The notes under the pieces are model-generated. The model saw only the letters and a list, made by a program, of their open reading frames with translations, ran no database searches and was not told the DNA's origin. From contig NZ_JAKUJY010000018.1 of assembly GCF_022664535.1 (NCBI RefSeq), positions 1 through 64,000 on the forward strand: a stretch of 64,000 nt of DNA. Direction: 5' to 3'. The translations under genes were made by a program, and so were the position numbers. The DNA comes from Sphingobium trunci (lineage in GTDB: Bacteria > Pseudomonadota > Alphaproteobacteria > Sphingomonadales > Sphingomonadaceae). The first letter of the stretch is position 1. Each line of letters starts with the position of its first letter. Shown here in pieces: positions 4,867 to 61,551 of this stretch.

Positions 4867-4951
4867 ACCCGTTCGTCCTTATATGTCGTCCGCTCCCGGC
4901 GGGACCATGTCCTGGTGCTTCCGCTGCCTCTGCGCATCGAAGATAGTGCGA

Positions 4952-6382: not shown

Positions 6383-8070
6383 GGCATCTCCCTTCCCAAA
6401 GCGGTGTTCCGCGCCATGACGGCCTGCCTCATGGCGGATTTTTGGATTTTCCCGGTGCTCGTCATCGGAAAGTCCGACACGAAATGGACAATGGCCGGAA
6501 TCTTGAAGTAGGCGATCCGCCCGCGGCAATGATCCTGCACGTCGGATGCCGTGAGACGCGCGTTGCCGGTACGCAGCCACACGCAGACCTCCTCGCCATA
6601 ATGGGGATGGGGGACGCCGAATATATGCGCCTCGTCAATGTCGGGATGTGTGCGCAGCAACGCCTCGATCTCGCCGGGGAATATCTTCTCGCCGCCCCGG
6701 ATGATGATGTCCTTCGCCCGTCCGGTAACGCGGACATAGCCGTCCTGGTCCATGGTCGCCAGATCGCCGGACCGTATCCATCCTCCGCCACCGAGGACTT
6801 CGGCGGACAAGTCCTCGTCGCCCCAATAGCCGCTCATCACGCTATAGCCCCGGAACAGGATTTCGCCCGGCTCGCCGACCGGCACCGTGCGGCCGTCGGG
6901 ACCGACGATCTTCGCTTCGACATGATCGTGCACGCGTCCCACCGTCGCCACGCGATGGGCAAGGCTGTCGGCCGGAAGCGTCTGGAAACTGAGCGGGCTG
7001 ACCTCCGTCATGCCATAGCCGATCGTGATCTCGCGCATGTGCATGGCTTCCACCACCCTGGTCATGACCTCGACCGGGCAGGGCGCTCCGGACATGATGC
7101 CCGTGCGCAGCGACGACAGGTCGTGCCTGGCGAAATCGGGATGCGCGAGCTGCGCGATGAACATAGTCGGTACGCCGTGCAGCGCGGTGCAGCGTTCCCG
7201 TTCAATGGCGGCAAGCACCTGCCCCGCGTCGAAGGCTTCGCCAGGCAACACCATGCATGCACCATGCGTGACGCAGGTCAGCACGCCCAGCACCATGCCA
7301 AAACAATGATAGAGCAGCACGGGGATGCACAGTCGGTCGACTGGCGTGAGCTGCATCCGCCGCCCCGAAAAAAAGGCGTTGTTGAGGATATTGTGGTGCG
7401 ACAGGATCGCCCCCTTGGGAATGCCGGTCGTCCCGCAGGTGAACTGGATGTTGATCGGGTCTTCCGGCTGGAGCCGATGGACGAGGGCCGCCAGCACGGC
7501 ATCGCTTTCCGTGGTCGCCATGGCCGCTATGTCGGAAAAGGCAAGATAGCCGTGCGGCGGCGCGTCGGCCATGACGATCAGCCATTCCAGGCTGGGCACC
7601 CGCCCGACGCACACATTGCCCGGCGTATCGGCATGCGGGCTGAAGCCCAGTTCGTTCATCGTGGCCAGATAGTCATGGCCGCGGAAATCGGATGCCAGCA
7701 CCAGGGCGCTGCATTCGACCTTGTTCAGGCAATATTCGAGTTCCTCGGCGCGATAGGCGGGATTGATGTTGACCAGAATCAATCCCGCCTTGGCGCTCGC
7801 GATCTGGGCGATGACCCATTCAAGCCTGTTGGGCGACCAGATGCCGATCCGGTCGCCCGGTTCCAGCCCGAGTTGCAGCAAACCGCTGGCGAACGCATTG
7901 ACCTTTGCCGACAATTGCCGGAAGGTCAGCCGCTCGCCCTGATGCAGCGCCACGATCGCTTCGCGGTCCCCGTGGCGCCGCGCCACCTCATCGAAAGCAT
8001 CGCCGATGGTCTGGTACAGCAGTGGATGATCGGAGGGGCCGGACGCATAGCTTACGGTCATGGATCGCAT
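6379..8070 (-). CDS. AMP-dependent acyl-CoA ligase (FadD-like)
   Basis: 563-residue ANL-superfamily enzyme. Motifs: FTCGTTGIPKGAILSH (P-loop), GYGMTEVSPLSFQ (A5), RSGDLATMDQDGYVRVTGR (A7/A8), and the C-terminal catalytic lysine in TSTGKIQKSAM. The layout resembles fatty-acid or 3-methylmercaptopropionate CoA ligases (a family inference from motif style). It is the first enzyme gene after the TonB receptor and overlaps the aldehyde dehydrogenase by 4 bp. A GC-rich hairpin lies upstream of it. A second start, four codons in (MTVSYASG), is possible. Confidence 0.88.
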   Translation of the reverse strand: MRSMTVSYASGPSDHPLLYQTIGDAFDEVARRHGDREAIVALHQGERLTFRQLSAKVNAFASGLLQLGLEPGDRIGIWSPNRLEWVIAQIASAKAGLILVNINPAYRAEELEYCLNKVECSALVLASDFRGHDYLATMNELGFSPHADTPGNVCVGRVPSLEWLIVMADAPPHGYLAFSDIAAMATTESDAVLAALVHRLQPEDPINIQFTCGTTGIPKGAILSHHNILNNAFFSGRRMQLTPVDRLCIPVLLYHCFGMVLGVLTCVTHGACMVLPGEAFDAGQVLAAIERERCTALHGVPTMFIAQLAHPDFARHDLSSLRTGIMSGAPCPVEVMTRVVEAMHMREITIGYGMTEVSPLSFQTLPADSLAHRVATVGRVHDHVEAKIVGPDGRTVPVGEPGEILFRGYSVMSGYWGDEDLSAEVLGGGGWIRSGDLATMDQDGYVRVTGRAKDIIIRGGEKIFPGEIEALLRTHPDIDEAHIFGVPHPHYGEEVCVWLRTGNARLTASDVQDHCRGRIAYFKIPAIVHFVSDFPMTSTGKIQKSAMRQAVMARNTALGREMP

Positions 8071-8082
8071 CTTGTCTGTGGT

Positions 8083-8115
8083 GAGCCGGGGCGAACGGCT
8101 TCCTCGCCCCGGTTC
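8083..8115 (-). terminator. intercistronic GC-rich hairpin after TonB receptor gene
   Basis: GAGCCGGGGCGA pairs with TCGCCCCGGTTC across a 9-base loop (one G-U pair). It lies just after the receptor stop codon and before the CoA ligase. No U-tract follows, so it may give partial termination or protect the 3' end of the upstream mRNA, not a full stop. Confidence 0.5.
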
Positions 8116-8124
8116 TCATTGCTG

Positions 8125-10431
8125 TCAGAAGCGGCGCCGGAAGGTGATGCCATAGGTGCGAGGCGCACTGTAATTGCCCTGCACGAAACCTGCGGCGGCG
8201 TTCGCGTCGCCGCTGAAGATATATTGCTTGTCGCTCAGGTTCTTGCCCCAGACGACCAGATCCCAGTTACCGTCGCTGTTTTCATAGGCGATCTGCGCAT
8301 TGAAGATGCTGTAGCCCGCCTGGGTCAGCCAGACCGAGTTGATGTCGTCATTGTAGACCTTGCTGGTATAGGACCAGTCGCCCCGCAGCACGACATCGCC
8401 GTCGATCCCCGCGGCGGGGATGCGATAGTCGAACCCGGCGCTGGCCGTCCATTCCGGGGAGTTGGACAGCTTGTTCGTCGGCCGCACCTGGAACTCCGGG
8501 CGGACCAGCGACGAAAGCGGAAGAAGCTTGGTGTAGCGGGTGGTGAGGTGCGCCAGCGTGGCATTGAGCGTCAGCGCCTCGACCGGCCGCGCCGTAAGCT
8601 CTGCCTCGAACCCCTTGATCCGCGCGTCGCCGCCATTCTGGGTGCCGGGGGCGAAATCCTCGATGACCGTGATCTGGATGTCCTGATATTTGGTCGTGAA
8701 GGCCGCCACGTTCAGGCGGACTCGCCGGTCGAGCAGTTCCAGCTTCGTCCCCACCTCGAACGTCGCCAGTTTTTCAGGAGTGAACGCCAGTACATCCGGT
8801 CGCGGCGCCACGGTTCTGGCATTGAACCCGCCGCCCTTATACCCCCGGGAATAGGAGGCATAAAGAAGCGCTGCGGGCGACAGCTTATAGTCCAGACTGA
8901 AGCGGGGCGAGACGTTCGAGAATGTGTTCGTCACCCGGCCATAGGGTACGGTGCGAACCCCGGCGAATGCGCCCCCCGCAGCGGGATCATAGATAAAATC
9001 GGGCAGCAGCGATTTCTTGTCATGCGTGTAGCGGATGCCCGCCGTCAGTTTCAGGCTGTCCAGCAGTGCGTAGGTCGCCTGACCGAAAAAGGCATAGCTT
9101 GAATTGTCCGCGTCGGATTTCAGGATGACCGTGCCGATCGAAGGCGGCAGCGCGCAGCGATAATCGTCGACCGCGCTCTCCTTGAAATAATAGGCGCCCG
9201 CGACATATTCCAGCTTCTTGTCGAAGCCCGACCCCAATATCTGGCCCTCCTGCGAGAATTGCTTCTGCTTGAAGTCGCTGAAACAGTCGGCGATCTGCAA
9301 GGGCGAATTGTCGGCGTCGCGGTTGAAGCTGCCCGTCACCCGGCGGAAGGCGGTGATCGACTTGAAGGTCAGATCGTCCGCCAGCTTCCATTCTGCCGTC
9401 CCCGCAAGGCCCGTGACATTGAGGTTGGTGCCGTTCGGCCCGGTCTGGAAAGTGCCCCGCTTGTTGTTCGGCGCCACGACCCAGCGGCTGTCATAGAGAA
9501 CCCCGGTGCCATAGCCGGGCACGTTGATGACGGGCGCATCGACCGCGTTATAGGCGGCGGTCAGCGTGCCGTCGAGCGGAACGGCCAAGGCCGTGGAGGC
9601 GACCGTAGCTTCGCGAATACGCGAGATGTCGGCTGTCACGTAGAAGTTCAGCTTGTCCGAAGGCTCATATTCCACCGCCAGCCGCGCCGATCCGCGATTG
9701 ACATCGCCCGGCGTTCGGCCTGTCCGGTTATCATGCGCGGGCGGTGGATAGTCTGCGGCCAGCAGCTTGTCCCAACCGTCCGCCCGCTTGTAGCCGAAGG
9801 TCAGTTTGGTGCGGAGCGTGTCGGACAGCGGCTGGTCGATCGACCCGCGGATTTCCATGCGGTCATAATTGCCATAGGTCGCCTCCAGTGCGCCGTTGGC
9901 CTTGTCGGACGGCCGCTGGGTCGTGATGTTGATCGCGCCGCCGATCGTATTGCGGCCGAACAGCGTACCCTGCGGCCCGCGTAGCACCTCGATCCGTTCG
10001 ATGTCGAGCACGTCGAGCACACCGCCGATCGAACTCGATACATAGACGCCGTCGATATAGGTGCCGACCCCCGGATCGTCCGTCACCTGATAACCCGATT
10101 TGCCGACGCCGCGGATGAACACGATCGCCGCGGAGGAGGAGCCGCTGAGCGGTGCCGTGGAATCGAACTGAAGATTGGGCGTGAACTCGGCAATGCCTGA
10201 AATATCCTCGACATTCTTGTTGGCGAGCGCGGCGGCGTTGAAAGCCGTGACGGCGATGGGCGTATCCTGAAGGTTTTCCTTCCGTTTCTGCGCGGTGACG
10301 ACGATCTCTTCTAGTGCGCCATCCTGTTTCGCGGGATCCGGCCCTTGCGCCAGTGCGATTCCAGGAAAAGTCAAAGTCAACGCCACGAAAGCGCAACCTA
10401 TATGGAGATGATTTCCTCTTATATTTCCCAT
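8125..10431 (-). CDS. TonB-dependent receptor
   Basis: 768-residue outer-membrane receptor. The signal peptide ends at GIALAQG, followed by the TonB-box-like region EEIVVTAQKRKENLQDTPIA, the plug hallmark VLRGPQGTLFGRNTIGGAIN, and a C-terminal beta-strand ending in phenylalanine (YGITFRRRF). This is the large sphingomonad-type receptor class. It lies 12 bp downstream of the FprA-like reductase gene in the Mo-enzyme operon, so it probably imports the substrate of that pathway. Confidence 0.92.
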   Translation of the reverse strand: MGNIRGNHLHIGCAFVALTLTFPGIALAQGPDPAKQDGALEEIVVTAQKRKENLQDTPIAVTAFNAAALANKNVEDISGIAEFTPNLQFDSTAPLSGSSSAAIVFIRGVGKSGYQVTDDPGVGTYIDGVYVSSSIGGVLDVLDIERIEVLRGPQGTLFGRNTIGGAINITTQRPSDKANGALEATYGNYDRMEIRGSIDQPLSDTLRTKLTFGYKRADGWDKLLAADYPPPAHDNRTGRTPGDVNRGSARLAVEYEPSDKLNFYVTADISRIREATVASTALAVPLDGTLTAAYNAVDAPVINVPGYGTGVLYDSRWVVAPNNKRGTFQTGPNGTNLNVTGLAGTAEWKLADDLTFKSITAFRRVTGSFNRDADNSPLQIADCFSDFKQKQFSQEGQILGSGFDKKLEYVAGAYYFKESAVDDYRCALPPSIGTVILKSDADNSSYAFFGQATYALLDSLKLTAGIRYTHDKKSLLPDFIYDPAAGGAFAGVRTVPYGRVTNTFSNVSPRFSLDYKLSPAALLYASYSRGYKGGGFNARTVAPRPDVLAFTPEKLATFEVGTKLELLDRRVRLNVAAFTTKYQDIQITVIEDFAPGTQNGGDARIKGFEAELTARPVEALTLNATLAHLTTRYTKLLPLSSLVRPEFQVRPTNKLSNSPEWTASAGFDYRIPAAGIDGDVVLRGDWSYTSKVYNDDINSVWLTQAGYSIFNAQIAYENSDGNWDLVVWGKNLSDKQYIFSGDANAAAGFVQGNYSAPRTYGITFRRRF

Positions 10432-49672: not shown

Positions 49673-50842
49673 CTAATCCTTCAGTCTCGCCCAAAGAGCA
49701 TGGGCCATGGCTGCGTTCCCCCTGGCGTCGGGATGGGAATCATGCGGCAGCCGCCAGTCCGGGTCGAGCGGCACCACCAGATGCGGAATGCTGCTGCCGT
49801 CGAAGATCGCGACACGCAGGGCACGTTCCCGCGCGCCGTCGGGCTGGAACGCGGGGACCAGAATGAGCGGCCGGGCGCCCCGCGTCCTCACCATCGCCAC
49901 TGCGGCCATCAGCAGGCGGCGGTCGATGGCCACGACATGAGCGATGGCAGCCCTGCTATGACAGGGAAACAATATCCGTCCCAAATGACCGAGCGCCCAG
50001 GAGGGTTCCGCCCTGTGCCACTGCCCCGCGCTGTCGATCCAGGGCCGGTTGCGGTCGAGATCGCGCACCATCAGGCTGGGCGAGAAGAGGATCACGACGG
50101 CCACAGGATGGCGGAAACGGGGTAGGTCCCGCTGGAGCTTCAGGAAGCTCTGGCTGACCGAATAGGCATTGACCGCCAGATTGGCGCTCTGGATGCCGCT
50201 TGAGGCCTGCACCCGTCCCGCCACCGAGTCCTTCCACTCGAGCCCCTTGCCGAACATGATCGATTCCCCGACGAACAGGATCGAGGGGGCTGTTCGGTCG
50301 AGCGAAGATGCGTTCGGCGCGATCCGATAGCCGTGGCTGTCGATCCGGTAGAGCGGGTGCCACGCAAATTCCGGATCGGCTGCCAGTCGCGACGGCACAT
50401 AGGTCCAGCCGAGTCGGGGATCGACCCGGCGCAGCGGTTCGTCGCCCGGCGTCCATGGCTGGCCCTTTCGCCAGGAAATCTGTTGCAGGATCGCCTCGCT
50501 CGCGGGCACGGCCAGCAATATCGCGATGCCGATGACGATCGCACGCCACATCCTGTCCCCGCGGCCGGCCTTGACCCAGTGCGCGGCGATCAGCAGGGCG
50601 AGGGTAATCGCCATCAGCGTGGCCCGCTCGATCTGGACGATCGTCATGAGCCATTCGCTTGGCACGAGAATGTCCGGAAGCAGATGGCGGTCGGTCCAAG
50701 CGCGGGTCATGCAGGCCGCCAGCCCGCCCAGCAGCAGCGCGGCACCGCCGATGAACAGCGCGGCGCTAAGGCGCAAAGCCTGGGCCGGGCCAATGCCCCG
50801 GAGCGGCGGGACGGCGGCCGAATGGGTGGTTTGGACGGACAT
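49673..50842 (-). CDS. SGNH-hydrolase-like membrane protein
   Basis: 389 residues. Three or so hydrophobic segments at the N-terminus (residues about 25-45, 65-85, 100-120) lead into a globular domain. The SGNH block I is LFVGESIMFGKGLEWKDSV with Ser as nucleophile, and block V is HDSHPDARGN. Probably a periplasmic esterase or acyl-group transferase anchored in the inner membrane. It heads a divergent arrangement with the carbamoyltransferase cluster. Confidence 0.72.
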   Translation of the reverse strand: MSVQTTHSAAVPPLRGIGPAQALRLSAALFIGGAALLLGGLAACMTRAWTDRHLLPDILVPSEWLMTIVQIERATLMAITLALLIAAHWVKAGRGDRMWRAIVIGIAILLAVPASEAILQQISWRKGQPWTPGDEPLRRVDPRLGWTYVPSRLAADPEFAWHPLYRIDSHGYRIAPNASSLDRTAPSILFVGESIMFGKGLEWKDSVAGRVQASSGIQSANLAVNAYSVSQSFLKLQRDLPRFRHPVAVVILFSPSLMVRDLDRNRPWIDSAGQWHRAEPSWALGHLGRILFPCHSRAAIAHVVAIDRRLLMAAVAMVRTRGARPLILVPAFQPDGARERALRVAIFDGSSIPHLVVPLDPDWRLPHDSHPDARGNAAMAHALWARLKD

Positions 50843-50893
50843 GCCAAGGCTTTGTGTCGCCCATGGTGCCCATGGTTCAACGGGCAGCGGGAT

Positions 50894-51664
50894 TTATAGG
50901 GTGAAGGTGAGGGCGATCACCAGCGCGGTCTTCGCGCCATATTTTCCGTCATAGCCCGGCCGATCTGCCGCATGGCCGGTCCAGGCGGCCTCAAGATCGA
51001 AGCGCCCCAGACGGCGGCGCAGGCCTATCTGCCAGTCGGTCGCATCCGGCGCATGACCGCCGGAGGGATTCTTCAGATAGACGAGGCGCCCGCCATGGCC
51101 GATCAGCGCCCAGTAGCGGCCAAGGTCGAGATTGCCGTTCACCTCCATGTAGAGCGTCGGTTCATCCCCCTGGAAATAGGCGGGAGAAAGGAAAAGGCGG
51201 CCGGAAATATTCCGGCCGGCAATGCCGAGATAGGCTTCGGTATAGCTGCGTCCGCCGCTGATGCCGGAATAACGGCCATAACGGCTGTGGACGAGGCCCA
51301 CATCGATCGTCGTTGCCGCGGAAAGCTGCTGCGCGAACCCGGCATAGGCCCGGAAGGACAGCGGCTTCAGACCGTCGTCGCGGGTCGCGACCACCGCCCC
51401 TGCAGCGCCGAGATACAGGCCCTCGCTGCTGTCCTGGACCAGATCCAGTTCGAAGGTCGGCCGATGGTCGCTGATCGCTTGACCGCGCAGCCGGGCCTGG
51501 CTGGAGAGAGTTAGGCTACCGCCCAGTTGCGCGGCGGCGGGGCTGACGAGAAGAGGGGTGGCCAGCAGAAGAGCGCCGCCCTGAATCGCGGCCCGCCGAT
51601 GCCGGGAGCGCCGCACCGGTGCCGTCCCGGCTCGCAGCCTTGAACCGCACCCTGGCGAGCGCAT
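50894..51664 (-). CDS. outer-membrane beta-barrel protein, Gcw_chp/TIGR02001-like
   Basis: 256 residues with a signal peptide (ALLLATPLLVSPAAAQ), then alternating beta-strand pattern (LTLSSQARLRGQAISDHRPT, YLGIAGRNISGRLFLSPAYF) ending in a strand FTL. It matches the Gcw_chp family in style. The start is uncertain because the first 30 residues are very arginine-rich. Confidence 0.65.
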   Translation of the reverse strand: MRSPGCGSRLRAGTAPVRRSRHRRAAIQGGALLLATPLLVSPAAAQLGGSLTLSSQARLRGQAISDHRPTFELDLVQDSSEGLYLGAAGAVVATRDDGLKPLSFRAYAGFAQQLSAATTIDVGLVHSRYGRYSGISGGRSYTEAYLGIAGRNISGRLFLSPAYFQGDEPTLYMEVNGNLDLGRYWALIGHGGRLVYLKNPSGGHAPDATDWQIGLRRRLGRFDLEAAWTGHAADRPGYDGKYGAKTALVIALTFTL

Positions 51665-51839
51665 CGATCATCCTTCCTGCCGTTATCGCGAATATGACCG
51701 ACCCTGCCTATGCTCCGGTGCCGCATCGATCAAGAAGGCGATCGGACTGCGGCAGGCGGCGCTGCAAAAATTTTTCGCGGGGCCATGAACCGCTTGCTCC
51801 GGTTATCGCCACTCATGGCTGTCAAGGAAGGAGGCAGGC

Positions 51840-52247
51840 ATGTCTCATGTGCAATGGCCCGCGATTCTGGCCGCGCTGATCCTCGCATCGACGGCCGGGG
51901 CACAGCCGGAAGCCGACAATTGGAGCGGTGCCCGGCTCGTCACCATCCGGTTGTCGAGCTTCCGGTTCGAACCGGCGGATATCGTGCTGGAACATGGCCG
52001 GCCCTACCGGTTCCATTTCGTGAACGATGCGTCGGGCGGGCATGATTTTGCCGGCAAGGAATTTTTCGCTCAAGCACGGATCAAGCCGGAGGATGCAGCC
52101 AAGGTCGAGGGGGGACGGGTGGAACTGAGCGGCGGGGAAAGTGTCGACGTCCGCCTGATCGCGCCGTTACCAGGCCAGTTCAAGATACGCTGCACCCATT
52201 TCATGCACAGCATGCTGGGGATGACGGGCCGGATCGTGGTGCAATGA
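51840..52247 (+). CDS. cupredoxin-like periplasmic protein
   Basis: 135 residues with a signal peptide ending at STAGAQP. The type 1 copper ligands are visible: His in GGHDFAGKEF, then Cys, His and Met in KIRCTHFMHSMLGMTG. The ribosome-binding site is GAAGGAGGC. Its stop overlaps the next gene by 4 bp, so it is coupled to the ferritin-like protein and may carry electrons or copper for it. Confidence 0.78.
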   Translation: MSHVQWPAILAALILASTAGAQPEADNWSGARLVTIRLSSFRFEPADIVLEHGRPYRFHFVNDASGGHDFAGKEFFAQARIKPEDAAKVEGGRVELSGGESVDVRLIAPLPGQFKIRCTHFMHSMLGMTGRIVVQ

Positions 52248-52972
52248 TCCGATGGCGTGCCCCGATCGACCGGATGGTCTGGGCCGATCCGCGCCGCCGG
52301 GCGCGCAAATTGATGCAATTCGCTGAGGTCGAGGCTCAGGGTGCGCGCGACCTGTTCCGCGCGGCCGAGGTCACGCCTGATCCTCACCTGCGACGCCGGT
52401 TGTTCGCCCATGCGCGGGACGAGGTGCGCCACGCCGCCCTGTTCCGGGCGCGCGGGTTGGCGCTGCGGCGGACGCTGGCCGATCCCGGTCCCGATCGCGC
52501 GCTGGGCGACGGCCTGATCCCCGGCGAGCGTGGTTTCGACCGGCTGGAGGTCGAGAAGGAGAGCATGGCCGCGCTGCTGGCCTTCATCCATCTGTCGGAA
52601 CGGGCCGCCGCGCACGCCTTTGCCGCCTATGGCGCAGTGCTCGGCCACGATCCGGAAACGCGGGCCGTGATTGCCCGGATCGCCCGCGACGAGGAGGGAC
52701 ATATGCGTTATTCGCGGGCGGAACTCGCCCGGCTGGCGCCGGATCAGGGCCGCCGGGCGCTTTGGATCGCGCGGCTGCGCCGCTTGTGGCGGGCCTATCT
52801 GCGGTTGGCGCTGATCCTGGCGGATCTGATCTCCCGGTTGATCCTGACGCTCGTCTATTTCCTGCTTCTTGCCCCTTTCGCCTGGATGGCGAAGCGGTCG
52901 GCGCGGCGGCAGGCACCCGGCTGGCGCGCCTGCGTGGATCGGTCGCGCGACGGTGGAGGAGGGCAATATTGA
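52244..52972 (+). CDS. membrane-anchored ferritin-like di-iron protein
   Basis: 242 residues. The four-helix carboxylate-bridged motif is complete: a glutamate near residue 27 (FAEVEAQGARD), ExxH in HARDEVRHAALF, a glutamate in EKESMAALLAFIHLSERAA, and ExxH in ARDEEGHMRYS. A C-terminal hydrophobic stretch (LALILADLISRLILTLVYF) anchors it to the membrane. Such proteins are often oxidases, desaturases or oxygenases. Its stop overlaps the carbamoyltransferase start by one base. Function unknown. Confidence 0.75.
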   Translation: MIRWRAPIDRMVWADPRRRARKLMQFAEVEAQGARDLFRAAEVTPDPHLRRRLFAHARDEVRHAALFRARGLALRRTLADPGPDRALGDGLIPGERGFDRLEVEKESMAALLAFIHLSERAAAHAFAAYGAVLGHDPETRAVIARIARDEEGHMRYSRAELARLAPDQGRRALWIARLRRLWRAYLRLALILADLISRLILTLVYFLLLAPFAWMAKRSARRQAPGWRACVDRSRDGGGGQY

Positions 52973-54741
52973 TGAAAATCCTGGGTATCTCCGCCTTCTA
53001 TCATGACGCCGCCGCCGCATTGACGATCGATGGCCTGCCCGTCGCCGCCGTGCAGGAGGAGCGATTGTCCCGATCCAAGAATGATCCCGCCTTTCCGCTG
53101 CGCGCGATCACATGGTGTCTCGACCATGCGGCGCTGGAGCCGGAGGATCTGGACGCGGTGATCTTCTACGAACGGCCCGCGCTAAAATTCGACCGGGTGC
53201 TGATGACGTTGCTGCGCGGCTTTCCGCAAAGCTGGCGCATTTTTCCCCAGGCGATGAAGAATATGGTCGGGGAAAAGCTCTGGGTGCGCGGCATCATCAG
53301 CGCGCAACTGGGCGTTCCGGCAAAGCGCATCCACTTCACGGACCATCATCTCTCGCACGCCGCCGCCGCCTTCCTGACGGCGCCGACGCAGCAGGCGGCG
53401 ATACTCACCGCCGACGGCGTGGGCGAGTGGGCGACGCTGACCGTCGGGCAGGCACGCAAGCGCAGCGGCGGCCCTGCGGAGATCAGCCTGCTGCGCGAAG
53501 TGCATTTTCCCCATTCGCTCGGCCTGTTCTATTCCGCCTTCACCGCATGGCTGGGGTTCCCGGTCAATGAGGGGGAATATAAGGTCATGGGCCTCGCCGC
53601 CTACGGCACGCCGCGTTTTGCCGGGGAGGTACGGCATATGCTGCACCGGACGCGCGATGGCGCCTTTGCCCTGGACCTTGGCTATTTCGATCATCACCGG
53701 GCGGCCGATGCCGCCTATTCCCATCGCTTCGTCGAACTGTTCGGTCCGCCCCGCGATCGGTTCGAGCCGATCGATCCCACCACTCCGCAGGGTCGTCACT
53801 ATGCCGATGTCGCGGCCAGCGCCCAGTGCGTTCTGGAGGAGGTGATCGTCGATATCGCAACCGCGCTGCGCCGGGAAACGGGCCTGTCCGATCTGTGTCT
53901 GGGCGGCGGCGTGGCGCTGAACGGGGTCGCCAATGCCCGCATCCTGCGCGCATCGAGCTTTGAACGGCTGTTCGTTCCGCCCGCGCCGGGCGATGCGGGT
54001 TGTGCCCTTGGAGCGGCGCTCTGGGCCGATCGCATCCTGTTCGGTCAACCGCACCGCGATTGTCCCGATCATCCCTTCTGGGGACCGGCGGTCGTGCCGA
54101 CCGATCTGGCGCGCCTTGCAGCGGAGGACGGGCTGTCCTGCGAACGGGTCGGCGAAGCGGAGCTGATGGATCGGCTGGTCGACGCCATCGGACGTGGCGC
54201 CATCGTCGGCTGGATGGAGGGCGCTGCGGAGTTCGGCCCGCGCGCGCTCGGTCACCGCAGTATCCTCGCCGATCCGGGCGATGCGGCCATGCGCGACCGG
54301 ATCAACCGCGACATCAAGTTTCGCGAATCCTTTCGCCCCTTCGCCCCGGTCGTTCCCGCGGACCATGCGGAAACCTTTTTCGAACTGCCGCCCGGCGGCG
54401 CCCGGCTGGGCCGTTTCATGTCCGGCGTCTTTCCGGTCCGGCCCGAATGGCGCGACCGGCTGCGCGCCGTCACCCATGTCGACGGCACCGCGCGGGTGCA
54501 GATGTTGGAAGCGGCGATGGCACCCCGCCTGCACGCACTGCTGATGGCCTATGGGCGCCGGCACGGGCTGCCGGTGCTGCTGAACACATCCTTCAACCTG
54601 GCCGGTGACCCGATCGTGACCAGCGCGGCGGAAGGCTATTCGACCTTCCGACGCGCCGGGCTGGACCTTCTGGTCGCGGAGGACCTGATCGTTCGCCGCG
54701 ATCCTGCGCGGCAGGACCATTCGCTGGAGGCTATGGCATGA
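52972..54741 (+). CDS. carbamoyltransferase, NodU/CmcH/TobZ family
   Basis: 589 residues. The N-terminal Kae1-like domain binds ATP and carbamoyl phosphate (MKILGISAFYHDAAAAL, TDHHLSHAAAAF with the metal histidines, LCLGGGVALNGVANARIL). The C-terminal domain has GWMEGAAEFGPRALGHRSIL and INRDIKFRESFRPFAPVV. It transfers a carbamoyl group to a hydroxyl of a sugar or natural product. It sits in an operon with a DUF5989 protein and a methyltransferase; the acceptor is unknown. Confidence 0.92.
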   Translation: MKILGISAFYHDAAAALTIDGLPVAAVQEERLSRSKNDPAFPLRAITWCLDHAALEPEDLDAVIFYERPALKFDRVLMTLLRGFPQSWRIFPQAMKNMVGEKLWVRGIISAQLGVPAKRIHFTDHHLSHAAAAFLTAPTQQAAILTADGVGEWATLTVGQARKRSGGPAEISLLREVHFPHSLGLFYSAFTAWLGFPVNEGEYKVMGLAAYGTPRFAGEVRHMLHRTRDGAFALDLGYFDHHRAADAAYSHRFVELFGPPRDRFEPIDPTTPQGRHYADVAASAQCVLEEVIVDIATALRRETGLSDLCLGGGVALNGVANARILRASSFERLFVPPAPGDAGCALGAALWADRILFGQPHRDCPDHPFWGPAVVPTDLARLAAEDGLSCERVGEAELMDRLVDAIGRGAIVGWMEGAAEFGPRALGHRSILADPGDAAMRDRINRDIKFRESFRPFAPVVPADHAETFFELPPGGARLGRFMSGVFPVRPEWRDRLRAVTHVDGTARVQMLEAAMAPRLHALLMAYGRRHGLPVLLNTSFNLAGDPIVTSAAEGYSTFRRAGLDLLVAEDLIVRRDPARQDHSLEAMA

Positions 54742-54950
54742 TCCGGCACAGGGGCCGCCTGCGGCGCCATCTCATCATCGTTGGCAGCGCATCCGGGACG
54801 ATCGTCGATCTGGTACGGGGGCTGTGGCGTTCGACCGGCGGGCGGCGCTGGATGATCCCGCTCGTGGTCTTTCTCTGCTCGGTCGGGGTGATACTGACGC
54901 TGGCCGCGGGCGTGGAGGCGCTGGCGCCCTTCATCTATTCGATCTTCTGA
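54738..54950 (+). CDS. DUF5989 small membrane protein
   Basis: 70 residues with one transmembrane helix (WMIPLVVFLCSVGVILTLAA) and the ending LAPFIYSIF typical of DUF5989. It overlaps the carbamoyltransferase stop by ATGA. In other genomes this family accompanies carbamoyltransferases (recall). Function unknown. Confidence 0.75.
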   Translation: MIRHRGRLRRHLIIVGSASGTIVDLVRGLWRSTGGRRWMIPLVVFLCSVGVILTLAAGVEALAPFIYSIF

Positions 54951-54952
54951 AG

Positions 54953-55969
54953 ATGGATGCGCTTGCCCTTTCCCTGCTGGCCTGTCCCGCTTGTGGCGGG
55001 CGGCTGGATGGGGCGCTTCGCTGCCGCGCCTGCGGGACCGCCTATCGTCGAACCGACGGCATAACCGATCTGCGCCTGCCGGGCGATGCGCGGACCGAAC
55101 GCGTCAGGGAATTTTACGCCGCGGCGCCCTTTCCCGGCTATCCGGCCAGGGACAGCATCGAGTGGCTGCGCACCCGGGCCGAACGCAGCCCGTTCGCCCG
55201 GTTGCTGGACGCGGCCATCCCCTATGACGCGCGGATATTGGAAATGGGCTGCGGGACAGGCCAGATGAGCCTCTATCTTGCGCGGGGCGAGCGGATCGTG
55301 ATCGCCGCCGATCTTTGCCGCCCGTCGCTGGCGCTGGGCCGGGCGGCCGCAACGCGGCTCGGCATAGGGCAGGTCGAATTTGTCGAGACCGATGTGCATC
55401 ATCCGGGCCTGCGCGAGGGCGCATTCGATATCGTCTATTGCTCGGGCATGCTGCATCATACGCCCAATCCCTATGCCGCCTTCGTCCGCGTGGCCCGGCT
55501 GGTGCGCCCCGGCGGACTGATCGTCATCGGTCTTTACAATCGCTATGCACGGCTGCCGCACCGGCTGAGGCGGGTGGCCGCCTTCCTGACGGGCGGGCGC
55601 TGGGTTCGGGCCGATCGGGTGCTGGCCAGCCGCCGGGCGCAGCCGGAGCGATATCGGGCATGGCTAAACGATCAATATCACCATCCCGAGGAACATAGCC
55701 ATACATTGGCGCAGCTCCGCCGCTGGTTCGCGGCCAATGACATCGCCTATATCCGGGCCGTTCCCGGCGCCCTGCTGGACCAGACGGACGGTGCGGGGCT
55801 GACCGACGCGGAAGAGGATGGTTGGTGGCTCGAAGACATATTGGCGCAGATCGGCTGGATCGGCCGGATCGGCTGGGAGGGAGGACTGTTCGCGACTGTC
55901 GGTCGCGCTAAGCGGTCTGCGTGCATGACGGGAGAAGACGATAGGATCGCATCTCCCGAACATGCGTAA
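54953..55969 (+). CDS. class I SAM-dependent methyltransferase with zinc ribbon
   Basis: 338 residues. An N-terminal zinc ribbon (LLACPACGGRLDGALRCRAC) precedes the SAM-binding core (ILEMGCGTGQMSLYLARG, IVIAADLCRPSLALGRA, DIVYCSGMLHHTPNP). It begins 2 bp after the DUF5989 stop. It probably methylates the product of the cluster. Confidence 0.82.
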   Translation: MDALALSLLACPACGGRLDGALRCRACGTAYRRTDGITDLRLPGDARTERVREFYAAAPFPGYPARDSIEWLRTRAERSPFARLLDAAIPYDARILEMGCGTGQMSLYLARGERIVIAADLCRPSLALGRAAATRLGIGQVEFVETDVHHPGLREGAFDIVYCSGMLHHTPNPYAAFVRVARLVRPGGLIVIGLYNRYARLPHRLRRVAAFLTGGRWVRADRVLASRRAQPERYRAWLNDQYHHPEEHSHTLAQLRRWFAANDIAYIRAVPGALLDQTDGAGLTDAEEDGWWLEDILAQIGWIGRIGWEGGLFATVGRAKRSACMTGEDDRIASPEHA

Positions 55970-56005: not shown

Positions 56006-59000
56006 TCAATCTTCCTTCTTCTCCTGCAGCCAAAGCAGCGAGAGGGGCAGCAGCAACAGCATGAACAGGGTCGCTGAAACAATCCCGCCCACAATGACGC
56101 AAGCGAAGGGCCGTTGCGTTTCAGAACCGATTCCCGTCGACAGCGCGGCGGGCAGCAGCCCAAGTCCGGCCATCAGCGCGGTCATCAGGATCGGGCGCAG
56201 GCGGTCGATCGCCCCCTCGATCACGGCGATGCCGAAGGCGTCGCCATTTTCGTAGCGATGGGTGATGTGTTCCAGCATCACCACTCCGTTCTGCACGGAT
56301 ATGCCCGCGACGGCGATGAAGCCGACAGCGGCGGAAACCGACATGTGAAGGCCCGCCAAGCCCAGCGCGGCGACGCCCCCGATCGCGGTGAAAGGCACCA
56401 TCGCCAGGATCAGCAAGGCCGAACGTACCGACCGGAAAGCGCCGAACAGCAGGATGAAGATGCCGAACAGCGCGATCGGCACGATCACCTCCAGCCGCTT
56501 CATGGCGCGCTGCTGGTTTTCGAACTGGCCACCCCAGCTCATCTGGTAGCCGGCCGGCAATTTCACTTTCTCGGCCACGGCTTTCTGCGCGTCGGCGACG
56601 AAGCTGCCCTGGTCGCGGCCATCGACATTGGCCTTGATCGCGACATTGCGGCTGCCATTTTCACGGCTGATGCGCGATGCGCCGACCTGAACGCCGATAT
56701 GGGCGATTTCCCCCAGGGATATCGCGCCGCCGCCGGGCAGCGGGATTTGCAGCTGCGACAGATCGTCTACCGCGTTGCGCTGGTCCGCCGCGAAGCGGAC
56801 GACGATGTCGAAATTGCGGTCGCCCTCATAGGCGGTGCCGACCGTGGCGCCGCCAAAGGCCGTCGCGATCGCCTTGTTGGCGTCGTCGGCGTTGAGGCCG
56901 TAGCGCGCCATGGCGTCGCGATCGAGCACCGCGCGCACTTCGGTCTGCCCACCGATCTTGACGGCATCGACGTCGGACGCGCCCGGCACGGCGGCGACCA
57001 CCCGGGCAGTCTGCTCGCCCAGCTGCTCCAATATATTGAGGTCGTTGCCGGTGATCTTGATCGATATCTCGCCCTTCACGCCGGAAAGGCTCTCCTCTAC
57101 GCTGTCTTCGATCACCTGGCTGAAATTGGTCGGGACGCCGGGGATGGCGGCGATCTTCTTGCGCATGTCGTCCTCCAGTGCCGCCTTGGTCGGGAACTGG
57201 GAACGCCATTCGCCGCGCGGCTTGAGGTCGATCAGCATCTGCATGCTGGACGGCCCCTTGGGATCGGTGCCATCATCGGGACGGCCGGTTTCGGAACCCA
57301 CATGCGCGACTTCGGGATAGGCCAGCATGATGCCGCGCACCCGTGCCTCCACCTTGCGCGTGGTCTCCATCGATGCCGATGGCGTCAGCTGGATGGTGAG
57401 CCAGATATTGCCTTCGTCCAGCTTGGGCAGGAATTCCGAACCCAGGCGCGGGATGAGCGCCACCGTGAAGAGCAGCGTCAAGGCGGCTGCCGCAAAGAAG
57501 ATGGTGGTGCGCGGTCGCGCCCTGTTGATGATGTTTCGGTATCCGTCGCGCAACCGGTCCATCCAGACGATATGCTTTTCCGCCATGTCATAGCGTTCGA
57601 CCAGGAAGCTGAGGACGGCGGGCAGGAATGACAGGGTGAGCACCAGCGCCGCGCCCAGCGCGAAGGACAGCGTCAGGGCGACGGGAGAGAACATCTTTCC
57701 TTCCACGCGCTGGAAGGTGAAGATCGGGACGAAGGCCATGATGATGATGGCCTTGGAAAACAGGATCGGCCGCGCCAGCCCGGTGAGGGTGATGCGCAGC
57801 ACCTGCTTGCGCCGGAACGTGTCGGGCTGGACTCCGTCATGCTTGGCGGCCTCCAGCGCCAGTGCGACCATCAGCGCCTCGACCAGGACCACCGCGGAGT
57901 CGATGATGATGCCGAAATCGACCGCCCCCATGGAGATGAGGTTGGCGGGCACGCTGACCGAATTGAGACCCGCAAAGGCCGCCAGGAGCGCCAGCGGAAT
58001 GATGGCCGCCACCACCATGGCCGCGCGCCAGTTGCGCAGGAAGATCAGCAGCAGCACGGTCACCAGCGTCGCACCCACCAGCAGATTCTCGGCGACCGTT
58101 TCGACCGTCTTGTCGAGCAGCTTGGTCCGCTGGTAGGTCGAACGGATCTGGATCGGCTGGCGGCCGGTGCGCTGGGCGTCCAGGCGGAACTGCGCGTTCA
58201 GCTTTTCCACCGCTTCATGCACGCCCTCGACCACCACGGCGGCATTCTGCCGCTTGACCATCGTCACGATGCCTTCGCTGACATCGCCCTGATGGTCGTA
58301 GGCGACCATGCCACTGCGTTCGGGCGTGCCGATCCTGACATCGCCGATGTCGCGCACGCGCACGGTGTTGCCGTTCTGCGCCTTGACCACGGTGTTGCCG
58401 ACATCGTCGATGCCCTGGTAGAGACCCACGCCGCGCACGACGACAAGTTCGTCCCCGCGCGGGATGACGCCGCCACCCACGTTGGAATTGGCGCTGCCCA
58501 CCGCCGATTGGATGTCGGCGATCGTCACGCCGTAACGCTTCAGCAGGTCGGGGCGGATGAGGATCTGATATTGCTTGATGCTGCCACCGAAGCTGGTGAC
58601 GTCGGCAACGCCGGGAACCATGCGCAGCGTCGGACGCACCACGAAATCCTGGATGGCCCGCGCTTCGTAGAGCGGCATGTCTGCGGGCTTGTCGAGCACA
58701 TAGCGATAGACTTCGCCCACCGCCGTCGACAGCGGTGCAAGGCTGGGCACGACCCCATCGGGCAGTTCGGCGTCGCGCAGCTTTTCCAGCACCTGCGACC
58801 GCGCGAAATAATCGTCCGTGCCGTCGTTGAAGATCAGCGTGACGACCGAAAGGCCGGTGATCGAGACCGACCGGATATCGTTGACCCCCGGCGTGCCTGC
58901 CAGTGCGCGCTCGATGGGCAGGGATATGGAGCGCTCGATCTCCTCGGGCGCCTGTCCCGGCCGCTGGCTGATGACCACCACCTGCACGTCCTGGACGTCC

Positions 59001-59119
59001 GGGAAAGCCTCGATCGGCAACGTCGTCAAGGCGCGAATGCCCACGATGACCAGCGCGACCGCCATCAGGATGACGAAGATCCGCTTCTCCACGACGAAGC
59101 GGGCCATGTTTTCCAGCAT
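56006..59119 (-). CDS. czcA: heavy-metal efflux RND transporter, CzcA/CusA family
   Basis: 1037-residue proton-driven inner-membrane pump. The helix-4 signature is GAVDFGIIIDSAVVLVEALM. The family consensus has Gly after the Asp and Asn after the Glu; here they are Ser and Ala, so ion specificity may differ from Co/Zn/Cd pumps. Periplasmic pore motifs such as IFNDGTDDYFARSQVLEKLR are present. It is the last gene of the operon with czcB and czcC homologues. The symbol denotes the family only. Confidence 0.92.
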   Translation of the reverse strand: MLENMARFVVEKRIFVILMAVALVIVGIRALTTLPIEAFPDVQDVQVVVISQRPGQAPEEIERSISLPIERALAGTPGVNDIRSVSITGLSVVTLIFNDGTDDYFARSQVLEKLRDAELPDGVVPSLAPLSTAVGEVYRYVLDKPADMPLYEARAIQDFVVRPTLRMVPGVADVTSFGGSIKQYQILIRPDLLKRYGVTIADIQSAVGSANSNVGGGVIPRGDELVVVRGVGLYQGIDDVGNTVVKAQNGNTVRVRDIGDVRIGTPERSGMVAYDHQGDVSEGIVTMVKRQNAAVVVEGVHEAVEKLNAQFRLDAQRTGRQPIQIRSTYQRTKLLDKTVETVAENLLVGATLVTVLLLIFLRNWRAAMVVAAIIPLALLAAFAGLNSVSVPANLISMGAVDFGIIIDSAVVLVEALMVALALEAAKHDGVQPDTFRRKQVLRITLTGLARPILFSKAIIIMAFVPIFTFQRVEGKMFSPVALTLSFALGAALVLTLSFLPAVLSFLVERYDMAEKHIVWMDRLRDGYRNIINRARPRTTIFFAAAALTLLFTVALIPRLGSEFLPKLDEGNIWLTIQLTPSASMETTRKVEARVRGIMLAYPEVAHVGSETGRPDDGTDPKGPSSMQMLIDLKPRGEWRSQFPTKAALEDDMRKKIAAIPGVPTNFSQVIEDSVEESLSGVKGEISIKITGNDLNILEQLGEQTARVVAAVPGASDVDAVKIGGQTEVRAVLDRDAMARYGLNADDANKAIATAFGGATVGTAYEGDRNFDIVVRFAADQRNAVDDLSQLQIPLPGGGAISLGEIAHIGVQVGASRISRENGSRNVAIKANVDGRDQGSFVADAQKAVAEKVKLPAGYQMSWGGQFENQQRAMKRLEVIVPIALFGIFILLFGAFRSVRSALLILAMVPFTAIGGVAALGLAGLHMSVSAAVGFIAVAGISVQNGVVMLEHITHRYENGDAFGIAVIEGAIDRLRPILMTALMAGLGLLPAALSTGIGSETQRPFACVIVGGIVSATLFMLLLLPLSLLWLQEKKED

Positions 59120-59123
59120 CGGA

Positions 59124-60242
59124 TCAGTCCCCGGAAAGCTGGGCGTTGAGCAGCAGGGCGCCTTCGCCGACGATGCGGTCGCCGTTCTTGAGGCCCGACG
59201 TCACGAACGACCAGCTGTCGCCCCGTTCGCCCACCTCCACCGGGACACGACGGAAACGGCCGAGTGCTTCGACGCGGAAGACATAGTTTTGCATGCCCGA
59301 TTCAAAGAGCGCGGCATTGGGCACCTTGATCGCGCGGCGGCCGTCGTCAGTGACGAGGCGCGCGCGCGCATACATTTCCGGTTTCAGCGCGAGGTCGGGA
59401 TTGTCGGCTTGCGCGCGGACCTGGACGCGGCGCGTGGCCGGATCGACGGCAAGGCCGATCTGGGTGATCGTGCCGTTGAAGCGGCGGCCGGGATAAGCCG
59501 GCACGTCGAATTCGATCCGCTCACCGACCCGCACGCGCCCCACGGAATCCTCCGGGACATCGACATTGATCCACAGATGCCGGGGATCGGAGACGGTGTA
59601 GAGCGGGCTCTGGCCTGCCGCGATCTGCTGGCCGGGATTGATCTGGCGGTCAATGACATAGCCGCTGACCGAACTGGTCAGCGCCAGCGCGTCGCCGCTG
59701 CCTCCGCCAAGATTGCGCAGCCGCAGTCGGGCGCGCTCCATCTCCGCCGAAGCGGATGCCGCGTCCGCTTCGGCCGCTTCGAAATCACGCCGCGAGATGG
59801 CATCGCCGGCAAAGAGCATGCGGGAGCGTTCCATCTCCCGCGACTTCTGGCTGCGTTGCGCCTGCGCGGTCAGCAGGTCCGCACGAGCCTGTCCCAGGTC
59901 GGGTGCATCGAGATAGGCGAGTGCCTGTCCCGCCCTGACCGGTTGCCCGATATCGGCCAGAACCTGCGTGACCCTGCCGGCCACTGGCGATCCGACCCGG
60001 CTGGTCCGCGATTCGTCCAGGGCGATGCGCGCATTGAGATCGGCCGAAACGGGCAACGGCCCGCTGCTTGCCGTCAGCAACTGAAGCGAATCGAGTTCGG
60101 GAGAACCAGGGGCGTAGCTGATGACGTCCGGGGACTTTTTCGGCGCCTGTGCGGGGGGCGCGTCCGACTGGCCGCATGCGGAGAGCAGGATGAGCATGGC
60201 CAGCGGCGTGGCGCCGAGGCGGGGAGAGAATCTCCGAACCAT
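59124..60242 (-). CDS. czcB: RND efflux periplasmic adaptor, CzcB/CusB-like lipoprotein
   Basis: 372 residues. The lipobox LILLSACGQ gives a lipid-modified N-terminus. Next are a barrel-sandwich and a helical hairpin (ALAYLDAPDLGQARADLLTA), then beta domains (GYVIDRQINPGQQIAAGQSP). The start at 60242 is chosen because it directly follows the czcC stop; longer starts would precede the lipobox too far. It links the pump to the outer-membrane channel. Confidence 0.88.
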   Translation of the reverse strand: MVRRFSPRLGATPLAMLILLSACGQSDAPPAQAPKKSPDVISYAPGSPELDSLQLLTASSGPLPVSADLNARIALDESRTSRVGSPVAGRVTQVLADIGQPVRAGQALAYLDAPDLGQARADLLTAQAQRSQKSREMERSRMLFAGDAISRRDFEAAEADAASASAEMERARLRLRNLGGGSGDALALTSSVSGYVIDRQINPGQQIAAGQSPLYTVSDPRHLWINVDVPEDSVGRVRVGERIEFDVPAYPGRRFNGTITQIGLAVDPATRRVQVRAQADNPDLALKPEMYARARLVTDDGRRAIKVPNAALFESGMQNYVFRVEALGRFRRVPVEVGERGDSWSFVTSGLKNGDRIVGEGALLLNAQLSGD

Positions 60243-60243
60243 A

Positions 60244-61551
60244 TTAACGATCATCTCCGGTAGTTTCAGCGGCGTGCAGCCGCGCAATGGCGTTGGCTTC
60301 GTCCGACCGGGCATCAATGGCACCCAATTCCACCGCCCGCAGCGAACGGCGCGCGTCAAGCAGTTCGATCAGCGACGTGGCGCCGTGCTTATAGGCAAAT
60401 TCCGCCACCTCGGCGGCCTTGCGCGCCGCGGGCAGCTGGGTTTCGTCAAATTCGCGGCGGCGCTCGCTCGCCTCCTGCAGCGATTGGCGGGCGATCATGA
60501 TATCGGCCGTGGCGACGGATATGGCCTTGCGTTCTTCCGCTTCAGCCTGGACCAGCGCAGCGCTAGCCGCATCGACTTCGCCATTATAGCGGTTGCGTAC
60601 GGGCAGCGGGACCGAAAGGCCCAGGCCCACGCTGTTGCCGACGCCGACATCGCCCTGCGCATGTTCGAATTGCATGCCGACCGTCACGTCGGGATGGCGC
60701 AGGGCGTGGGCGCCATCGAGGTTGCGTCGCGCGGCTTCAGTGCGGGCCTGCGCGGCGAGCACGTCCGGGCGGTGCATCGCCAGCAGATCGGCGGGCTGAT
60801 CGGCCTGCAAGGCGGGAACCGGCCAGTCGCCTGTCGTCGCCAGCATGTCGGATTGCGTTTCCCGTCCGATCAAGGTGCCGAGCGCCAGTTGCGCCGCATG
60901 CCATTGGGTAACGCTTTGCACGGCGTCGGTCCGGGCGCGCGCCGCTTCGACGCTCTGCCGGGCCAGATCGCCGTTGGAAAGCGCGCCGGCGCTTTGCTGC
61001 TTTTGAGCAAGGCCGAGGCTGTCGGCATAGCTTTGGGAGATGGTCTGAAGGATTGCGACCCGCCTTTCTGCTGCCTTGAGCTCGAAATAGGCATCAAAGA
61101 CCGCCTCGCGCATGTCGCGTCGCGCACTGCTCAGGTCATCCCGTGCCGCGTCGATCAAAGCATTCGCCGCCTTTGTTCGCGCCGTCCGTTTGCCGCCGCG
61201 TTCGAGAGGCAGGTCGATCCGGGCTGTCGTATCGGCAAGCTGGCCATAGGGGGTCGAACCGATTTGCGATGGCCGGATCTGCACCGCATTCACGCTGAAA
61301 ACCGGGTTGGGCGCCGTATCCGCGGCGCGCAAATTCGCTTGTGCCGTCTTGAGCGCCAATCGGGCCCGTATAAGGTCTATGTTGGCGTCCTCGGCCAGCG
61401 ACAGCGCCTCATCCAGGCCGATGGGTGCGCTTGCCGTCGCCGCTCCCGGAGGTGGGCCTGCCTGAGCGGATAGCGGATACAACAGCATTGCACAGAGGCA
61501 AGCCGCCATGCTCGCCCTCCGGCCGGGAGGCGTGATAGTCCAAGAGAGCAT
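60244..61551 (-). CDS. czcC: RND efflux outer-membrane factor, CzcC/TolC-like
   Basis: About 435 residues, with a signal peptide ending LYPLSAQA. TolC-type repeats are visible: DEALSLAEDANIDLIRARLA and the long helical segment RREFDETQLPAARKAAEVAE. The ATG at 61551 gives a 31-residue signal peptide; an ATG at 61617 gives a longer leader. It is the first gene of the efflux operon. Confidence 0.85.
   Translation of the reverse strand: MLSWTITPPGRRASMAACLCAMLLYPLSAQAGPPPGAATASAPIGLDEALSLAEDANIDLIRARLALKTAQANLRAADTAPNPVFSVNAVQIRPSQIGSTPYGQLADTTARIDLPLERGGKRTARTKAANALIDAARDDLSSARRDMREAVFDAYFELKAAERRVAILQTISQSYADSLGLAQKQQSAGALSNGDLARQSVEAARARTDAVQSVTQWHAAQLALGTLIGRETQSDMLATTGDWPVPALQADQPADLLAMHRPDVLAAQARTEAARRNLDGAHALRHPDVTVGMQFEHAQGDVGVGNSVGLGLSVPLPVRNRYNGEVDAASAALVQAEAEERKAISVATADIMIARQSLQEASERRREFDETQLPAARKAAEVAEFAYKHGATSLIELLDARRSLRAVELGAIDARSDEANAIARLHAAETTGDDR

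Follow-up and report, generated by a model that had tools for sequence, protein, structure and literature searches.

A Sphingobium trunci carbamoyltransferase gene cluster and its probable link to a type III polyketide synthase pathway

Here we describe seven genes within a 64,000-nucleotide stretch of Sphingobium trunci DNA (contig NZ_JAKUJY010000018.1, positions 1 to 64,000), hereafter the window. Five of them encode a cupredoxin (CUP), a ferritin-like di-iron protein (FER), an O-carbamoyltransferase (CARB), a DUF5989 membrane peptide and a methyltransferase (MT), and two divergent genes encode an SGNH-type membrane protein and an outer-membrane barrel. This soil bacterium probably uses the set to oxidise, carbamoylate and methylate a fatty phenol, for whose synthesis the enzymes are encoded at another site in the genome. 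On balance we favour the view that the cluster is a tailoring block, controlled by an extracytoplasmic function (ECF) sigma factor, for a phenolic lipid from an unlinked type III polyketide synthase (PKS) locus. The link to a type III PKS pathway is well supported at the level of sequence comparison, because FER and the PKS co-occur, the two loci are physically linked in two relatives, and both a cupredoxin lineage and a promoter motif are shared; the chemistry, the product and the lipid substrate of the block we infer. A sequence-only reading of the same DNA had suggested oxidation, carbamoylation and methylation of some membrane-linked molecule, and could name no pathway that combines the genes of the cluster. 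The evidence now points to such a pathway; the three reactions and the lipid substrate remain presumptive.

Probable link to a type III polyketide synthase locus

The cluster recurs as a set. FER sets were found in eight genomes, namely the window genome (G000), G003, G008, G036, Sphingobium sp. 15-1 (G1050), S. chungbukense (G1051), Sphingobium sp. TomTYG65 and G698; apart from the window genome six are Sphingobium, and G698 represents another genus of the family (locus L031 and genome G036 were counted as one genome). All seven window genes have homologues in each of the eight sets. The recurrence on which the sequence-only reading had staked its proposal is thus seen in seven other genomes of the family, and given this joint recurrence the set is more than a chance assembly. 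FER itself was detected in 4 of the 61 genomes of a search amongst relatives (own genome included), all four within 37 same-genus genomes, at three loci, all Sphingobium, in a scan of one genome per species, and in 1 of 72,556 plasmid records, that of TomTYG65. Besides the own genome, 398 genomes of the phylum yielded five weak matches, which were partial or ferritin-like proteins in other contexts and of which only locus L015 was informative, and a FER profile gave four weak matches over 385 genomes of the class.

The window genome (4.67 Mb in 83 contigs, with the window on contig C10) carries on contig C3 a type III PKS, an FAD monooxygenase and a second methyltransferase (MT2) together (locus L145). 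The PKS has chalcone/stilbene synthase domains, as read from the G698 protein, and the best PDB matches of the window-genome enzyme are PKS18, which we take to be a long-chain alkylpyrone synthase, and 7cb3, tied. The same three functions make up the srsABC, hidABC and planctomycetal operons, and no carbamoyltransferase, di-iron protein or cupredoxin is among the tailoring genes described in the accessible part of the report on these operons (PMC10896814). A type III PKS is present in all eight FER genomes: five in a first test of six genomes, where G476 was the exception, then two of two in a forward test, and lastly the TomTYG65 megaplasmid. Within the 37 same-genus genomes a strong PKS match accompanies FER in 4/4 cases and occurs in 12 of the 33 genomes without FER, three more of which have weak matches. 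Inheritance within a clade as the only basis of the link was considered and rejected on the evidence of the PKS tree, across which the FER genomes are dispersed (5 changes, a value reached or undercut in 153 of 500 shuffles).

Relatives join the two loci physically. A single stretch of G698 contains MT-DUF5989-CARB-FER, the PKS, MT2, a UbiE/CMAS-like methyltransferase, the SGNH gene, CUP and a run of sigma factor, anti-sigma factor, S8 protease, barrel and FAD enzyme, such that the FAD monooxygenase gene follows the barrel within the sigma operon. Another genome of that genus, G1115, groups genes for PKS, MT2, CUP, sigma, anti-sigma, S8, barrel and FAD enzyme at one locus, with no FER, CARB, DUF5989 or MT there and no CARB anywhere in the genome. 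Within this genus, then, the PKS locus includes CUP and the regulators, and the FER block has the look of something added to it. One contig of S. chungbukense carries both the FER block and the PKS locus, separated by 10.8 kb in which kup- and kdp-like genes lie. Both loci are on one contig or megaplasmid in G003, G008 and TomTYG65, hundreds of kb apart by contig position, and on different contigs in the window genome, G036 and Sphingobium sp. 15-1. Genes for kdp (once also kup) were also seen beside the PKS locus or the FER block at L213, L145, L147 and L030, annotated as such in L030 and recognised by eye in the others; an ancestral order FER-kdp-PKS is suggested.

The two loci also share a putative promoter. 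The motif TGAACC-N16..18-CACT lies upstream of CUP in all seven Sphingobium FER sets and upstream of the sigma gene in the five intact ones; it occurs once in the 64 kb window, before CUP (shuffles average 0.4), and 3 times in 597,346 bases of other taxa. It is found 71-118 bp upstream of the PKS start in four of the eight FER genomes (the window genome, G008, G1050 and G1051); G698 has it upstream of the FER operon and of the sigma gene, not of the PKS. It precedes the PKS at none of 24 loci where FER was not found, of which 12 came from same-genus genomes searched for FER, 10 from plasmid records (S. indicum and S. yanoikuyae included), where the search covered plasmids only and FER matched TomTYG65 only, and two from G1115 and G1081, searched for CARB only. 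The scan thus covered 32 PKS loci, 8 with FER and 24 where FER was not found; the weak PKS matches L142-L144 and other plasmid records lay outside it. The first pattern, TGAAC-N17..20-CACTYA, matched none of the PKS loci to which it was applied. Ten upstream regions were read with the help of an intermediate, looser pattern, after which the pattern given above and one looser variant were fixed. The looser variant matched 1 of the 24 loci, in Roseomonas, at 19 bp. The genome G027 has no FER, yet its PKS falls with those of G008 and G1050 in the tree; its aligned site departs from the motif in both boxes.

Two Novosphingobium plasmids carry overlapping CUP and MT2 genes divergent from a PKS and an FAD gene, and G1081 has the same overlapping pair. 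A cupredoxin match was obtained in 31 of 189 genomes of the family, and amongst the 30 loci read MT2 lies within 1.5 kb in G1115 and G1081; in G698 it is 2.0 kb from CUP, beyond that limit. No cupredoxin was found within 7-9 kb of the PKS in nine further plasmid PKS loci, including that of TomTYG65, and CUP had no match amongst PDB sequences. On the CUP tree, where many inner branches are weak, the FER-operon cupredoxins group with the PKS-linked ones of Novosphingobium and G1081 (support 89/78), and the PKS-linked label requires 2 changes, with 0 of 500 shuffles as low. This tree bears on a different explanation, that of an envelope module for copper or oxidative stress in which CUP and FER would handle metal or peroxide, with CARB and MT as incidental passengers. 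Relatives of CUP near copper-resistance genes on two Sphingomonas plasmids, the ECF-type promoter, and the Dps and bacterioferritin folds that lead the Foldseek list for FER with weak E-values all fit such a module. However, the FER-operon cupredoxins do not group with those of copper loci (those of G698 and G1115 do), and CARB, DUF5989 and MT accompany FER in all eight sets; we therefore consider a stress module distinctly improbable.

The di-iron protein and the carbamoylation module

A glutamate, an ExxH, a glutamate and a second ExxH within a four-helix bundle form the signature of ferritin-like di-iron proteins. In FER the corresponding residues, E30, E60xxH63, E119 and E150xxH153, are invariant in 9/9 aligned sequences, and the AlphaFold2 model (pLDDT 80, pTM 0.72) shows the bundle followed by one long C-terminal helix at residues 169-222. 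FER thus combines fold and ligands of the ferritin-like class, and metal binding is predicted from the sequence and the model. MiaE headed the structural comparison by VIA-align (Z 16.6, rmsd 3.1, 167 aligned), on a par with rows for Dps and an aldehyde-deformylating oxygenase; COQ7 is not among the structure matches listed, to which we attach no weight. FER has the fold and ligand pattern in common with the COQ7- and MiaE-type di-iron monooxygenases, and differs from them in scoring below every curated cut-off and in carrying a C-terminal SxtJ-like membrane segment.

The sequence-only reading had noted a C-terminal anchor in FER. Hydropathy predicts a single membrane span there, at 190-208, and the region additionally resembles SxtJ, which that reading had not seen. 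To avoid circularity between FER and SxtJ, the hidden Markov model (HMM) used here was built from 37 SxtJ proteins of other loci, with no FER sequence included. Against 8,176 open reading frames (ORFs; E up to 10) it matched, outside its training set, only a CARB-SxtJ fusion at locus L121 (84.9 bits) and nine FER rows (18.1-30.5 bits, all at the FER C-terminus; two rows represent one assembly). A comparison by hhalign gave E 1.1e-5 and a probability of 81.5% over residues 176-233; the distant FER-like protein of G476 (locus L038) had no match to the SxtJ model. On this sequence evidence the C-terminus of FER is likely homologous to SxtJ, the similarity being short and inside a membrane helix.

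CARB aligns over its full length with the novobiocin enzyme and GdmN, and its PDB matches are these two and TobZ. The motifs HHLSH (125), FGPRALGHRS (421) and NTSFN (538) are intact; HHxxH is a metal motif and the other two belong to the C-domain. TobZ, GdmN and the novobiocin enzyme therefore resemble CARB over its full length and in conserved active-site motifs, but their substrates are antibiotics, unlike the one proposed for CARB, and to our knowledge they are soluble and without SxtJ or DUF5989 partners. CARB falls below the NodU equivalog NF041651 (151.3 against 1000 bits).

Another parallel is the triad of CARB (PF02543/PF16861), SxtJ (PF19588) and DUF5989 (PF19451). Here too CARB stands beside a DUF5989 peptide, whose gene adjoins it with a 4-base overlap, and a membrane partner, and SGNH genes and the same methyltransferase type are found again in some relatives. 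The window differs in having no separate SxtJ gene (no PF19588 match at E up to 1 in the eight window proteins scanned), the SxtJ-like segment being instead the C-terminus of the di-iron protein that precedes CARB. At 40 of 65 DUF5989 places listed in other genera, CARB was present in 37 and SxtJ in 33, counts that come from iterative HMMs, with FER sequences included in the SxtJ model there, and for loci some of which end at a contig edge. Across 296 genomes of the order, DUF5989 matches at E up to 0.001 were found in 10 and above cut-off in 5; among these five, the FER form is found in the window genome and in G698, and the SxtJ form at L034-L036.

Several CARB loci show variations of their own. 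The L121 fusion (8102-10318, minus strand), with its SxtJ domain at the CARB C-terminus, lies in the order SGNH, a methyltransferase of the same type as MT, CARB-SxtJ, DUF5989, SGNH. At L093 two tandem DUF5989 genes (8026-8467) adjoin CARB, SxtJ, a GDSL protein and a methyltransferase of the MT type. Four consecutive reading frames on an Azospirillum oryzae plasmid (L080, 8175-12330) encode a methyltransferase, CARB, SGNH and a product of 65 residues that Pfam does not recognise; this last may be a diverged DUF5989-like peptide.

The fusion of FER with an SxtJ-like segment suggests that SxtJ and DUF5989 hold a second enzyme or a substrate at the membrane, which is directly testable. No substrate could be predicted from the CARB module by itself; the regulon yields a concrete prediction, namely a type III PKS lipid. 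Within the library searched, no literature was found on DUF5989, alone or with a carbamoyltransferase, or joining a carbamoyltransferase, a ferritin-like protein and a cupredoxin. Of the papers that bring together a type III PKS and a cupredoxin or a carbamoyltransferase, none treats the present gene set, judged by titles and the starts of abstracts, and the SxtJ-carbamoyltransferase papers concern, by their titles, cyanobacterial or dinoflagellate toxins or their producers. The families are known; neither their combination nor the FER-SxtJ architecture nor the regulon that ties them to the PKS seems to have been described in the literature searched.

Proposed chemistry and competing explanations

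According to the accessible part of PMC10896814, three-gene type III PKS operons produce alkylresorcinols, which relatives oxidise to alkylquinones. On that ground we propose that such a lipid would be hydroxylated by FER, carbamoylated by CARB and methylated by MT. The SxtJ-like segment would anchor FER at the inner membrane in the vicinity of CARB and DUF5989, where the di-iron site of FER could hydroxylate the resorcinol or quinol ring or the alkyl chain; CARB would move a carbamoyl group from carbamoyl phosphate to a hydroxyl, and MT would methylate another oxygen. The SGNH protein might edit or add an acyl group in the periplasm, and CUP and the barrel might serve redox or transfer at the envelope; these roles, like the order of steps and the exact product, are guesses. 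A bolder version, to which we give somewhat less than even credence, holds that carbamoylated phenolic lipids are an undescribed class made by a two-locus pathway under an ECF sigma/anti-sigma/S8 switch, in which a di-iron oxygenase took the SxtJ role by fusion to give one membrane complex that oxidises and carbamoylates.

A number of observations weigh against the tailoring of a PKS lipid. The co-occurrence statistics (Fisher test, 0.028 in the 37-genome sample and 0.0027 with three genomes added from other samples) are only partly corrected for kinship, and if the three weak PKS matches are counted as present, the genomes without FER score 15/33 and p rises to about 0.06 (by hand). In Sphingobium sp. 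15-1 the FER block and the PKS are on separate large contigs, so linkage is not general. The promoter motif is lacking before the PKS in G003, TomTYG65 and G698 and has one changed base in G036, and the Fisher values for it, 0.014 (4/8 against 0/12) and 0.0019 (4/8 against 0/24), apply to a final pattern that was relaxed after two PKS upstream regions had been inspected. The alkylresorcinol type of the PKS is only presumed, given that its best NCBIfam model, NF042429 for DpgA (a 3,5-dihydroxyphenylacetyl-CoA synthase), scores far below cut-off (101.6 in the window genome and 108.6 in G698, against 425 bits). FER reaches no Pfam or NCBIfam family cut-off, COQ7 being best (PF03232, 17.3 against 23.5; NF033656, 18.9 against 180 bits), and its fold comparison points to no substrate. 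Lastly, in G476, a genome with no PKS, CARB lies beside a FER-like protein of distant similarity (32%) and a DUF5989-like peptide that scores below cut-off. Judged by eye, that locus (L038, 2914-18964) also holds a short cysteine-rich ORF and a subtilase protein of cyanobactin-like type (3225-5543) near the FER-like protein, two SGNH genes and radical-SAM-like genes; it is possibly a peptide natural-product locus with the same carbamoyl module.

The ordinary triad raises the same difficulty from another side. NCBI annotation places it in Paludisphaera beside exosortase and polysaccharide genes, polysaccharide genes also lie beside it at L015 (by eye), and none of 47 survey loci has a type III PKS near the triad. 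The block might accordingly carbamoylate and methylate a surface glycan or glycolipid, as the triad presumably does, with the PKS link reflecting a shared stress regulon only; the distant loci L093 and L121, where the triad is again accompanied by genes of the MT and SGNH types, would suit this explanation. Against it, the genes are bound to the PKS by their interleaving in G698, by the short distance between the loci in S. chungbukense and by the CUP-MT2 pairs; inspection by eye, with no search aimed at one, also revealed no glycosyltransferase gene immediately next to the FER block. We regard a glycan substrate as unlikely, though less so than a stress module, and retain the PKS lipid as the preferred substrate.

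Gene arrangement and loss of the regulators

All seven reading frames are open and correctly placed as the sequence-only reading described them, with labels that now rest on Pfam, motifs and fold (Table 1). Its description of touching or overlapping genes also holds: in the operon CUP-FER-CARB-DUF5989-MT successive genes overlap by 4, 1 and 4 bases and are then separated by a 2-base gap, and the SGNH and barrel genes diverge from this tight plus-strand unit. The CARB start at 52762 in the ORF list is too early and was taken as 52972. The GES and DSHP motifs of the SGNH protein are conserved catalytic motifs and are intact here; the protein reaches no Pfam or NCBIfam family cut-off. A homologue is present in 7/7 other FER loci, its position having moved in G698.

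Table 1. Features of the cluster, with positions in the window
Feature	Position	Strand	Basis
SGNH-type membrane protein, 389 aa	49673..50842	-	GES and DSHP motifs; three predicted N-terminal membrane helices
Gcw_chp / TorF-family outer-membrane barrel, 256 aa	50894..51664	-	PF09694 56.4 bits; TIGR02001 50.6 bits
S8 protease remnant, about residues 350-409, two pieces	51585..51763	-	tblastn with sister protease
ECF-type promoter motif TGAACC-N18-CACT of the cupredoxin operon	51786..51813	+	
Cupredoxin (CUP), 135 aa, signal peptide by eye	51840..52247	+	PF13473 27.8 bits (cut-off 27); PF00127 26.0 (cut-off 21.2)
FER, ferritin-like di-iron protein, 242 aa	52244..52972	+	Ligand pattern; AlphaFold2 bundle
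SxtJ-like membrane segment, FER residues 176-221	52769..52906	+	SxtJ HMM built without FER, 25.3 bits
CARB, NodU/CmcH-class O-carbamoyltransferase, 589 aa	52972..54741	+	PF02543 224.2 bits, PF16861 202.2 bits, full length
DUF5989 membrane peptide, 70 aa	54738..54950	+	PF19451 43.8 bits
MT, Trm112-like zinc ribbon and class I methyltransferase, 338 aa	54953..55969	+	PF03966 26.7 bits, PF08241 75.5 bits

Five Sphingobium sisters carry genes for an ECF sigma factor, a zf-HC2-type anti-sigma factor and an S8 protease between CUP and the barrel. In the window sigma and anti-sigma are gone, and of the protease about the last 60 codons remain, in two pieces, a loss that the sequence-only reading had no means of seeing. 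This remnant would suit a decaying relic, a cluster that has lost its sigma factor, anti-sigma factor and protease. Yet its seven genes are intact and its promoter motif is kept, and the window genome has a paralogous ECF sigma/anti-sigma/S8 cassette on contig C2 (L209, 7753-10297) with the same promoter motif and an anti-sigma factor at 61%. Sphingobium sp. 15-1 shows a similar loss of the same three genes and nevertheless keeps the FER block, the motif and a paralogous cassette, in which sigma, anti-sigma and S8 genes are joined by a barrel-like stretch that is split in two. A relic is thus, in our estimation, the least probable of the explanations considered. For a working tailoring block, the S8 protease of the intact relatives would act on the anti-sigma factor and free the sigma factor, and in the window genome the cassette on contig C2 would probably drive the operon in trans.

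Directly downstream of MT, on the opposite strand, 56006-60359 encodes what by eye is an efflux pump of RND type together with its fusion protein; these have no match in three sister loci (L010-L012) and are probably unrelated to the cluster. On a plasmid of Sphingomonas sp. R1 (L077, 8411-11493) a cassette of sigma factor, zf-HC2 protein, S8 peptidase and TorF porin stands with no CARB beside it, and the regulatory unit is therefore separable from CARB.

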